From NCBI GenBank assembly GCA_017936665.1, contig JAGBFB010000019.1, positions 1 to 55,315 of the forward strand: 55,315 nt of DNA, in the 5' to 3' direction. Below are positions 10,476 to 54,449 of this stretch, in pieces. The stretch's first letter is position 1; each line of letters begins with the position of its first letter. The notes beneath the pieces were generated by a model. That model made no database searches, was not told the origin of the DNA, and saw only the letters and a list, made by a program, of their open reading frames with translations. The DNA comes from Spirochaetaceae bacterium. Lineage in GTDB: Bacteria > Spirochaetota > Spirochaetia > Treponematales > Treponemataceae. The translations under genes and the position numbers were made by a program.

Positions 10476-10504
10476 TTGAATAATTACTAAAAATACGATA
10501 ATAT
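10476..10504 (+). promoter_or_regulatory. promoter of gatCAB, predicted leaderless start
   Basis: TTGAAT (10476-10481), 17-bp spacer, TAATAT (10499-10504). Seven bases then separate the -10 from the gatC ATG at 10512, and there is no Shine-Dalgarno, so the predicted transcript starts at or within a base or two of the start codon. Confidence 0.6.
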
Positions 10505-22352: not shown

Positions 22353-22380
22353 TTGACAAAAGTTTCAATTTCTGTATAAT
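22353..22380 (+). promoter_or_regulatory. promoter of ispE-spoVG, short leader
   Basis: TTGACA (22353-22358), 16-bp spacer, TATAAT (22375-22380). The ispE ATG starts 11 nt after the -10, so the leader is only about five bases and holds no ribosome-binding site. Confidence 0.7.
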
Positions 22381-42340: not shown

Positions 42341-42369
42341 AATATGAACATAAAATTTAGTTTTGTCAA
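42341..42369 (-). promoter_or_regulatory. promoter of the DUF4912-GH57 operon, short leader
   Basis: Minus strand: TTGACA (42369-42364), 17-bp spacer, CATATT (42346-42341), ten bases before the ATG at 42330; no ribosome site. It overlaps the end of the rluA-like gene. Confidence 0.5.
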
Positions 42370-43034: not shown

Positions 43035-43048
43035 TCGATAATTATATT
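43020..43048 (+). promoter_or_regulatory. divergent promoter of the transglutaminase-like gene
   Basis: TTGAAG (43020-43025), 17-bp spacer, TATATT (43043-43048), overlapping the opposite rluA promoter; only one of the two can be occupied at a time. Confidence 0.4.
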
Positions 43049-43069
43049 GGAGATATGATTATGTGTAAA
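43041..43069 (-). promoter_or_regulatory. promoter of the rluA-like gene, predicted leaderless
   Basis: Minus strand: TTTACA (43069-43064), 17-bp spacer, TATAAT (43046-43041), then TATCGA and the ATG. A start seven bases past the -10 falls on the A of the ATG. Confidence 0.65.
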
Positions 43070-45541: not shown

Positions 45542-45570
45542 TTGACATCAGTTTTACTATATTATACCAT
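45542..45570 (+). promoter_or_regulatory. promoter of the 45578 gene, predicted leaderless
   Basis: TTGACA (45542-45547), 17-bp spacer, TACCAT (45565-45570), then seven bases to the ATG; no ribosome site. The -10 region is shared on the opposite strand with the cdd TATAAT. Confidence 0.5.
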
Positions 45571-47591: not shown

Positions 47592-48803
47592 CTAAAAAGC
47601 TTTTTCTATAATTCCACCACCAACAGTTACTCCATTGATGTAAACTACGGCTGATTGCCCTGGAGCTATGGCTCTTTGTTTTTCATCAAATGTAATTTTG
47701 TAACTTCCTTCTGGGTACTCGCTGGATGCTCTTTCTATTAATGCTAAAACTGGTTTTGATGCAAGTCTAATTTTTACAAGGCCTTTAAACGCTTTTTCCG
47801 GGGCAAAGTTTCCTGCCCAAACCCAGTTTGTTGCAATTAGACCTTCTGCTAAAAGACCGTCATTTTCTGATAAAACAACAGTATTTTTTTCTTTGTTTAT
47901 TTCTTTTACATAAAGAGGATTTTTTGCACTTACACCTAAACCACGTCGTTGTCCAATGGTGTAAAATTCTATTCCTCGATGTTTACCTAAAACTTTTCCA
48001 TTTTCATCAGTGATGTTTCCGGGAATTGATTTTACATCAGCAAAGATTTTTTCAAAAATTTCTGGTGGAACAAAATCTTGACTTTCACTTTTTTCGGCTG
48101 CTTGCAAATTTCGTTTGCGTGCTTCTTCGTAAACTTCTTTTTTTGTCATTTTGCTTAAAGGAAATCGAACTTTTTCAAGAACTTCAGATTTTATTCTATT
48201 TAAAAAATAGGCTTGATCTTTTGTTCCGTCTTCAGCTTGACTTATAAAAATAGGGTAGAGGTTTACATCATTTGATTTAGAAGAATTTTCACTTCCTTCT
48301 TCAGTTTTTAAAATTTCATTTATTGGAGAATTACATTTTACAAGTTTTGCGTAGTGTCCCGTACAAAAATAATCAAATTTAATCCCTAGTTTTTCTACAC
48401 CTTGCAATAATGCACCAAATTTTACAGTTGGATTGCACATAATACAAGGATTTGGTGTTCTTCCATTTCTATATTCTGATTTGAAGTATTCTAAAACATT
48501 TTTTCTGTATTCATCTTTTACAGAAATAACATGATATTCAATATCGTTTTCTGCACAAAATTTTCTGCAAGTTTCAATATCTATTTTTTCATCTGGTCCA
48601 TAACAAGAATGTCTTAATCCGTCAGGTGATGGCTCTATTGGTAAATCATTATTCCAAGTTGACATTGTAACCCCAATTACTTTACAACCTTGTTCTTTTA
48701 AAAGCATCGTAACAAGTGTAGAGTCAACTCCACCAGACATTCCGATTAAAACTGTATCACCTTTTTCTGGCTGATTTATTTCGTAAAATTCTAAATCTTG
48801 CAT
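47592..48803 (-). CDS. mnmA: tRNA-specific 2-thiouridylase MnmA
   Basis: 403 residues from the ATG at 48803 (longer TTG start rejected: it overlaps the -10 box). PP-loop GMSGGVDSTLV, GVTMSTWNND, the NPCIMCNPTVKFG motif with the active cysteine, TGHYAK, QAYFLNRI and GQRRGLGVS. It sulfurates U34 of Lys, Glu and Gln tRNAs. Odd: the usual SQDICFVPDG, which carries the second catalytic cysteine (Cys199 in E. coli), reads SQDFVPPEIF. Instead there is a CxxC (CIMC). Confidence 0.93.
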   Translation of the reverse strand: MQDLEFYEINQPEKGDTVLIGMSGGVDSTLVTMLLKEQGCKVIGVTMSTWNNDLPIEPSPDGLRHSCYGPDEKIDIETCRKFCAENDIEYHVISVKDEYRKNVLEYFKSEYRNGRTPNPCIMCNPTVKFGALLQGVEKLGIKFDYFCTGHYAKLVKCNSPINEILKTEEGSENSSKSNDVNLYPIFISQAEDGTKDQAYFLNRIKSEVLEKVRFPLSKMTKKEVYEEARKRNLQAAEKSESQDFVPPEIFEKIFADVKSIPGNITDENGKVLGKHRGIEFYTIGQRRGLGVSAKNPLYVKEINKEKNTVVLSENDGLLAEGLIATNWVWAGNFAPEKAFKGLVKIRLASKPVLALIERASSEYPEGSYKITFDEKQRAIAPGQSAVVYINGVTVGGGIIEKAF

Positions 48804-48809
48804 AATTTT

Positions 48810-48838
48810 AATATACAATTTTACATTGCTATTCTCAA
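48810..48838 (-). promoter_or_regulatory. promoter of mnmA, predicted leaderless
   Basis: Minus strand: TTGAGA (48838-48833), 17-bp spacer, TATATT (48815-48810), then six bases to the ATG at 48803; no ribosome site. Confidence 0.6.
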
Positions 48839-48854
48839 GATGTTTTGATATAAT
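48826..48854 (+). promoter_or_regulatory. promoter of the acyltransferase gene, short leader
   Basis: TTGCTA (48826-48831), 17-bp spacer, TATAAT (48849-48854), eight bases before the ATG at 48863. It interleaves with the divergent mnmA promoter. Confidence 0.6.
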
Positions 48855-52527: not shown

Positions 52528-52556
52528 TTGACATTTTACCTATTAGTTTCTATTAT
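52528..52556 (+). promoter_or_regulatory. promoter of the phosphohexomutase gene, predicted leaderless
   Basis: TTGACA (52528-52533), 17-bp spacer, TATTAT (52551-52556), then TAGGTT and the ATG at 52563: a start seven bases past the -10 is the A of ATG. Confidence 0.7.
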
Positions 52557-52562
52557 TAGGTT

Positions 52563-54449
52563 ATGAATAATTTATTAGAACTTTCAAATGAACAACTTAC
52601 ATCTTCGCTTTCAAAAATGATTTTATCAGCTTCTGGCTGGCGGACAATTTTTGCAAAATCTGGTGAAGAACAGGATAATACAACTGAAATAACAGATGGT
52701 CTTGCAGGAATTTCACTTTTAATAGGAAAATCCTTTTGTGATTGGTTTTCAAAAGAATTTTCACAGATTAAAAACAAACGCATAGTTTTAGCTTGTGATA
52801 CTCGTCCAACAGGAAAAACAATTGCAGATTATGTTTTGCGTTCTGTAATAGCTTCTGGATTTGACATTCGTTATGTAGGAGTTGCTTCTGCACCAGAAGT
52901 TATGGCTTATGCTCGTAAACTTGATGGATTTATCTATATATCTGCAAGTCATAATCCAATCGGACATAATGGAATTAAGTTTGGCTTAAATGACGGTGGC
53001 GTAATCGACGGTGAAAAATCAAAAGTTCTAATAGAAAGTTTTAAAAATCTTTGTAATCAAGATGATGCAAGTGAAATTGCAAAAAATCTTTTTTCTTCTT
53101 GTAATCAAGATTTATTAAAAGAAGTTTATCAAAAGACAGAATTTTATAAAAAAGAATGTTTACAAAGTTATTCTGAATTTTTTTATGAAATAACAGCGGC
53201 ATCAAAGGATGATGGAATTATAAAACCAATTTTTTCTTCAATAAAGAAATCTATAAAAGAAAATCCAATTTCAGTTGCTTGCGATTTAAATGGAAGTGCA
53301 AGATGTCTTTCTATTGATTCAAAAATTTTTGCAGAAAATGAAATTCCATTTTTTACTATAAATGATGAAGCCTTCAAAATTGCTCATGAAATTATTCCAG
53401 AACCAGAAAATTTGATTTACTGTGCAGACTTTATGAAAAAACTTCATTCTGAAGGTAATAATTCTGTCAAATTAGGATATATGCCCGATTGTGATGGGGA
53501 CAGAGGAAATATCGTTTATTGGAGTGATGATGAAAATCAGCCTAAAATATTAAAAGCACAAGAAGTTTTTTCTTTGTCAGTTTTATCAGAACTTGCTTTT
53601 ATGGATTATTTGGCAGATAAATTTCCTCAATTCAATAGCGAAAAAAAAGCAATTTCTGTAAATGATCCAACTTCCATGAGAATTGAAGAAATTGCAAAAT
53701 GTTTTAATGTTGAAGTTCACCGAGCAGAAGTAGGGGAAGCTAATGTTGTAAATCTTGCTCGAGAATTACGAAATCAAAATTATCAGGTGAGAATTTTAGG
53801 TGAAGGTTCTAACGGAGGAACAATTACAAATCCTGCGGCAGTTCGAGATCCTATAAATACAATTTTTGCTTTATTAAAATTACTTTGCTTAAAAGATGAA
53901 GTTTTACCTAACGGAAAAGTCGTGTTAGGTTTATTTCATCGTTGGTGTAAATTTTCAGGGAATGAATCACTTTACAGAGAAAATTTTACTCTTGATGATG
54001 TTACTAAAACTTTACCAAAATATATTACAACTGGAGTATCAGAACCTAGAGCAATTCTCCATATTCAAAATTCAAATCACAGTGACTTAAAATCAAAATA
54101 TCAAAAGAATTTTGAAAAATTTTGGCAAGAAAAAAAATCTTATCTTTTTGAACGATATGGAATTTCTTCTTGGCAAGCAGTTTGTAATAATGGAACAAAG
54201 CAAACAAACGGTTTGACTGATTTTTCCGTTTCTGCAAGAGGTGGATTGAAAATTATCTTCTATAACGAAGAAAAAAATCCAATTTCATTTATTTGGATGA
54301 GAGGAAGTGGAACTGAAAGTGCTTTTAGAGTTATGTGTGATGTAAAAGTTTTGGATAATTCTGAAATATCTTTAACTAAAGCTACAGAATTTGAAAAAGA
54401 ACTTTTAGAGTATCATTCTAATCTTATAAAACTTTCGGATAGCATTTAA
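52563..54449 (+). CDS. phosphoglucomutase/phosphomannomutase family enzyme
   Basis: 628 residues. Phosphoserine loop YISASHNPIGHNGIKFG, metal loop PDCDGDRGNIV, sugar-binding loop GEGSNGGTITNP and a C-terminal phosphate-binding RGSGTESAFRVM. It is about 50-80 residues longer than typical members, mostly in inserts between the second and third domains. It interconverts hexose 1- and 6-phosphates; glucose versus mannose specificity is undetermined. Confidence 0.9.
   Translation: MNNLLELSNEQLTSSLSKMILSASGWRTIFAKSGEEQDNTTEITDGLAGISLLIGKSFCDWFSKEFSQIKNKRIVLACDTRPTGKTIADYVLRSVIASGFDIRYVGVASAPEVMAYARKLDGFIYISASHNPIGHNGIKFGLNDGGVIDGEKSKVLIESFKNLCNQDDASEIAKNLFSSCNQDLLKEVYQKTEFYKKECLQSYSEFFYEITAASKDDGIIKPIFSSIKKSIKENPISVACDLNGSARCLSIDSKIFAENEIPFFTINDEAFKIAHEIIPEPENLIYCADFMKKLHSEGNNSVKLGYMPDCDGDRGNIVYWSDDENQPKILKAQEVFSLSVLSELAFMDYLADKFPQFNSEKKAISVNDPTSMRIEEIAKCFNVEVHRAEVGEANVVNLARELRNQNYQVRILGEGSNGGTITNPAAVRDPINTIFALLKLLCLKDEVLPNGKVVLGLFHRWCKFSGNESLYRENFTLDDVTKTLPKYITTGVSEPRAILHIQNSNHSDLKSKYQKNFEKFWQEKKSYLFERYGISSWQAVCNNGTKQTNGLTDFSVSARGGLKIIFYNEEKNPISFIWMRGSGTESAFRVMCDVKVLDNSEISLTKATEFEKELLEYHSNLIKLSDSI

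Follow-up and report, generated by a model that had tools for sequence, protein, structure and literature searches.

Putative leaderless or near-leaderless transcription units at sigma-70-type promoters in a Treponemataceae genome

Bacteria, some spirochaetes among them, are already known to possess leaderless genes, and the class described here adds a further case. Genes termed TA-led, in which a TANNNT box has its first T about 10-12 nt before the start codon and no Shine-Dalgarno (SD) sequence is present, were reported from 6 of 18 spirochaete genomes, where they made up 1.8-6.9% of genes (Zheng et al. 2011, PMC3160421). Zhukova et al. 2017 (PMC5243855) counted ~440 mRNAs with a UTR of <10 nt in Leptospira interrogans by dRNA-seq, with fewer leaderless genes than expected in motility at 37°C. 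Outside the phylum, in the leaderless transcriptomes of Mycobacterium and Deinococcus, the start codon is the first part of the transcript in a large minority of units (cited in PMC5243855). No transcription-start map for any Treponema was found in the literature searched, which is part of the whole literature.

The window analysed here is a 55,315-nt stretch of a Treponemataceae genome (GCA_017936665.1, contig JAGBFB010000019.1, forward strand). In this genome, ordinary sigma-70-type promoters (TTGACA-17-TATAAT) placed at the ATG very probably drive a distinct class of leaderless or near-leaderless transcription units, the remaining heads having a leader and an SD. In the mechanism proposed, RNA polymerase would begin transcription with the A of the start codon or 1-5 nt ahead of it, the resulting mRNAs would be leaderless or nearly so, and their translation would begin without SD contact, like that of other leaderless mRNAs. 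We infer the actual 5' ends and translation without a leader from sequence.

Distance from -10 box to start codon across the genome

The assembly holding the window comprises 2.58 Mb at 31% GC, of which a sample of 1.08 Mb was tested. Gene starts were taken from a purpose-made hexamer caller blind to SD and promoter signals. A TATAAT-like box ended 6-8 nt before the start codon in 64 of 365 ATG operon heads, compared with 14.6 ± 4.0 in dinucleotide shuffles; the spacers of 6, 7 and 8 nt were held by 37, 16 and 11 genes respectively, over a background of ~6 per position. The same peak was sought in operon-internal genes and was absent. Six nucleotides is the usual discriminator length in sigma-70 geometry, and with the mode at 6 nt the +1 would thus fall on the A of the ATG; T occupied position -1 in 49 of the 64 leaderless-like genes. 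When both boxes were demanded, 69 heads were obtained at 5-8 nt versus 4.0 ± 2.0 in dinucleotide shuffles, with a modest excess at 9-11 nt (10 versus 3.4 ± 1.6). The two-box heads at 5-8 nt amounted to ~18% of 386 ATG/GTG heads, a percentage that refers to operon heads of the sampled part and not to all genes, with a false fraction of ~6%. The mRNAs of about one in six transcription units appear to begin with the start codon itself or only a few bases ahead of it.

In a genome of 31% GC the pattern TAnnnT is common, and -10-like hexamers could fall ahead of start codons by chance; random expectation in AT-rich DNA was the outcome against which the preliminary description had set its proposal. 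The two-box heads depart from that expectation by the margin given above, inner genes lack the peak, and the -35 box, which played no part in choosing the 64 leaderless-like genes, matched TTGACA at a mean of 3.38/6 when placed exactly 17 nt away versus ~1.7 at other spacings. The peak was also present at 51% GC, in the independent treponeme-family genome G006 of 3.06 Mb (11 of 76 heads against 1.1 expected, mode at exactly 6), so AT-richness is not its cause. Chance is refuted for the class, where we give it next to no probability, although it may account for individual cases, gatC for instance.

A second rival account is that the starts were mis-called, with the true start lying downstream and the leaders therefore ordinary. 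The start codons used here are predicted, and the N-termini of phosphohexomutase orthologues differ. Of 63 leaderless-class genes, however, only 1 has an in-frame alternative start with an SD 15-90 nt downstream (and 1 has one upstream), wrong starts are not expected to give so sharp a mode 6 nt from the called ATG, and we judge this account improbable. The peak survived where the called ATG was the first possible start (49 of 223 heads versus 9.0 ± 2.7). As regards a preference for AUG as start codon, the box stood at 6-8 nt in 2 of 41 non-ATG heads, a small number, and in 64 of 365 ATG heads.

When each head was represented by its best promoter, the -10-to-start distance was bimodal, as had been proposed, with 79 heads at 5-11 nt, 102 at ≥16 nt and a valley of 4 heads at 12-15 nt. 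The anticipated anticorrelation with the SD was likewise borne out (odds ratio 22, Fisher p 2e-18): an SD was absent from 69 and present in 10 of the 79 short-class heads, versus absent from 24 and present in 78 of the 102 long-class heads. SD matches of ≥4 nt were rare in the leaderless-like genes (8%) and frequent in other heads (68%) and inner genes (81%). The SD was scored without the host anti-SD, the 16S rRNA gene having been sought by its 3'-end pattern and by Rfam and being absent from the 99%-complete assembly. This gene is often missing from metagenome-derived or collapsed assemblies.

It has further to be considered that the ATG-adjacent promoter is secondary and that the main transcript comes from further upstream, with SD-free translation by way of, for example, ribosomal protein S1 and an A/U-rich leader. 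Both S1 and leaderless mRNA have been linked with an AT-rich bias at -20 to -10 (PMC5397173), and some heads, gatC among them, have a second box upstream. The 12-15 nt valley parting the short and long classes speaks against such an arrangement, as do the many divergent gaps that are too short to fit leaders; we hold it to be improbable too. In 10 of 16 divergent pairs with a gap of <70 nt, at least one partner was of the leaderless-like class.

Promoters at eight operon heads of the window

The preliminary description had cited eight heads in the window with a -10 box ending 6-11 nt before an ATG that has no SD. Sequence reading and scoring agreed with it at all eight: each has a sigma-70-type promoter (Table 1), with a box-to-box spacing of 17 nt in seven, the phosphohexomutase included, and 16 nt in ispE, and an SD match of ≥4 nt was sought and found in none of them. 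The phosphohexomutase had been singled out as the most exact case, and positions 52528-52565 read TTGACA-17-TATTAT-TAGGTT-ATG letter for letter, with the ATG at 52563, no SD match of ≥4 nt before it and a -10-to-ATG distance of 6 nt that equals the mode across the sampled genome. The weakest of the eight is gatC, where a higher-scoring box sits 27 nt away; its 7-nt spacing is retained in both same-genus genomes. The products of the DUF4912 and acyltransferase genes match Pfam PF16258 and PF01553, respectively.

Table 1. Putative promoter elements of the eight heads and the phosphohexomutase coding sequence; positions are those of the window.
Feature	Position	Strand	Sequence and description
phosphohexomutase -35 box	52528..52533	+	TTGACA
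phosphohexomutase -10 box	52551..52556	+	TATTAT; 17 nt past -35, 6 nt ahead of ATG
phosphohexomutase CDS	52563..54449	+	PGM/PMM domains I and III (Pfam PF02878, PF02880); predicted leaderless
gatC candidate -35	10476..10481	+	TTGAAT, weak
gatC candidate -10	10499..10504	+	TAATAT; 17 nt past -35, 7 nt before ATG 10512
ispE -35	22353..22358	+	TTGACA
ispE -10	22375..22380	+	TATAAT; 16 nt past -35, 11 nt before ATG 22392; predicted leader 4-5 nt
DUF4912 gene -35	42364..42369	-	TTGACA; overlaps end of RluA-like gene
DUF4912 gene -10	42341..42346	-	CATATT; 17 nt past -35, 10 nt before ATG 42330
RluA-like gene -35	43064..43069	-	TTTACA
RluA-like gene -10	43041..43046	-	TATAAT; 17 nt past -35, 6 nt before ATG 43034
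gene 45578 -35	45542..45547	+	TTGACA
gene 45578 -10	45565..45570	+	TACCAT; 17 nt past -35, 7 nt before ATG 45578
mnmA -35	48833..48838	-	TTGAGA
mnmA -10	48810..48815	-	TATATT; 17 nt past -35, 6 nt before ATG 48803
acyltransferase -35	48826..48831	+	TTGCTA
acyltransferase -10	48849..48854	+	TATAAT, extended (TGA ahead); 17 nt past -35, 8 nt before ATG 48863

An upstream TTG at 48818 offers a second possible start for the mnmA open reading frame (47592-48818, minus strand). By promoter geometry ATG 48803 is the likelier of the two, and gene callers may pick the wrong one.

The RluA-like gene (43034, minus strand) diverges from an unannotated 397-aa gene (43055, plus strand) for which a Pfam scan returned no match, the two start codons being 20 nt apart. 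This divergent pair recurs in ~20 Treponema loci, mostly with gaps of 28-32 nt. There a -10-like box lies 6-7 nt before the ATG on the RluA side, and the opposite gene is usually preceded by a GGAGG-like SD.

Recurrence in other genomes and among orthologues

Escherichia coli K-12, run through the identical pipeline, showed no such peak (0 of 78 heads). In G090, which has a Borrelia-sized chromosome of 917 kb, the box was found in 8 of 53 heads versus 2.7. No clear genome-level peak was seen in the 200 kb samples, which are of low power, from G021 (1.14 Mb, Treponema pallidum-sized), G016, G092 and G042. Pooled Treponema loci gave a strong peak (68 of 404 versus 12.4), which is not counted as independent evidence because all of them come from one shared neighbourhood.

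In 25 of 30 genomes of the order, G021 and G016 among them, ispE is preceded by TTGACA-16/17/18-TATAAT-like boxes at a distance of 5-12 nt from the start, and the proteins sharing this layout are 35-55% identical. The ispE of G021 (locus L283) has a candidate GTG start 5 nt past a TTGACA-18-TAGAAT promoter. For mnmA a box at 6-8 nt was present in many relatives, TATATT or TATAxT at 6-7 nt recurring.

Under strict labels, 51 phosphohexomutase orthologues were leaderless-like and 35 SD-led, with spacers mostly of 6-7 nt, and their tree required 12 parsimony changes between the two states, at least 8 of them forced by supported branches; the labels were assigned by rule and the tree was a fast one, which makes these figures approximate. 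A tree needing 12 changes implies that the mode of initiation switches repeatedly within one gene, and it offers a natural series of switches between two initiation modes.

Class membership and comparison with known leaderless systems

The preliminary description had proposed two translation-initiation classes that might separate regulated from housekeeping operons. The two classes stand, on the bimodal distances and their anticorrelation with the SD; the division along regulated and housekeeping lines does not, since core genes (ribosomal proteins, FtsZ, DnaK, NusG) are SD-led and metabolic and regulatory genes occur together in the leaderless class. Pfam was scanned with 30 leaderless and 30 SD-led heads taken from shuffled lists. 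The SD-led sample held ribosomal proteins L11 and L15, NusG, DnaK, FtsZ, PEPCK, LDH, IMPDH, an EngA-type GTPase, two MCPs and CheW. The leaderless sample held an rRNA methyltransferase, AIR carboxylase (PurE), a Mur ligase and radical SAM enzymes, all of them low-abundance enzymes, together with a PFL-like enzyme, an S41 protease, an RnfC-like protein, one response regulator and one HTH regulator.

By a codon index based on the ribosomal protein operon, leaderless genes scored below heads with SD≥5 (p 3e-5), below weak-SD heads (p 0.001) and below all other heads (p 8e-4), and not below other no-SD heads or inner genes. The top 15% of the index took in 3 of 62 leaderless genes versus 32 of 124 SD≥5 heads, a contrast by which strongly expressed heads have an SD. 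Judged by codon usage, leaderless genes look weakly expressed, and the axis dividing the classes looks like expression level rather than regulated versus housekeeping function. SD strength correlates with expression in many bacteria, so part of the contrast may stem from selection for an SD where expression is high, rather than from a property of the leaderless genes. A wider reading, in which treponemes run two parallel initiation systems, with a weakly expressed set (ispE most deeply) kept leaderless by selection, its translation tuned separately and single genes switching repeatedly, is speculative and in our estimate rather unlikely.

Treponemes are hard to work with. If ~18% of transcription units are leaderless, then anyone annotating start codons, predicting promoters or designing reporters in these organisms must allow for the class, because SD-based gene callers may misplace such starts.

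Compared with the systems described above, Mycobacterium and Deinococcus are high-GC and have a larger leaderless fraction; their 5' ends are mapped and those of Leptospira, which belongs to another class of the phylum, are experimental (PMC5243855), whereas the present class is known from sequence alone. Leptospira is likewise a spirochaete, and the chemotaxis genes are SD-led here, in likeness to the low share of motility genes in its leaderless set (PMC5243855). The TA-led genes (PMC3160421), like the present class, have a TANNNT box near the start codon and no SD. In that survey all genes were counted and no Treponema was named in the text, whereas the present analysis addresses operon heads, both promoter boxes, the anticorrelation with the SD, and orthologues.
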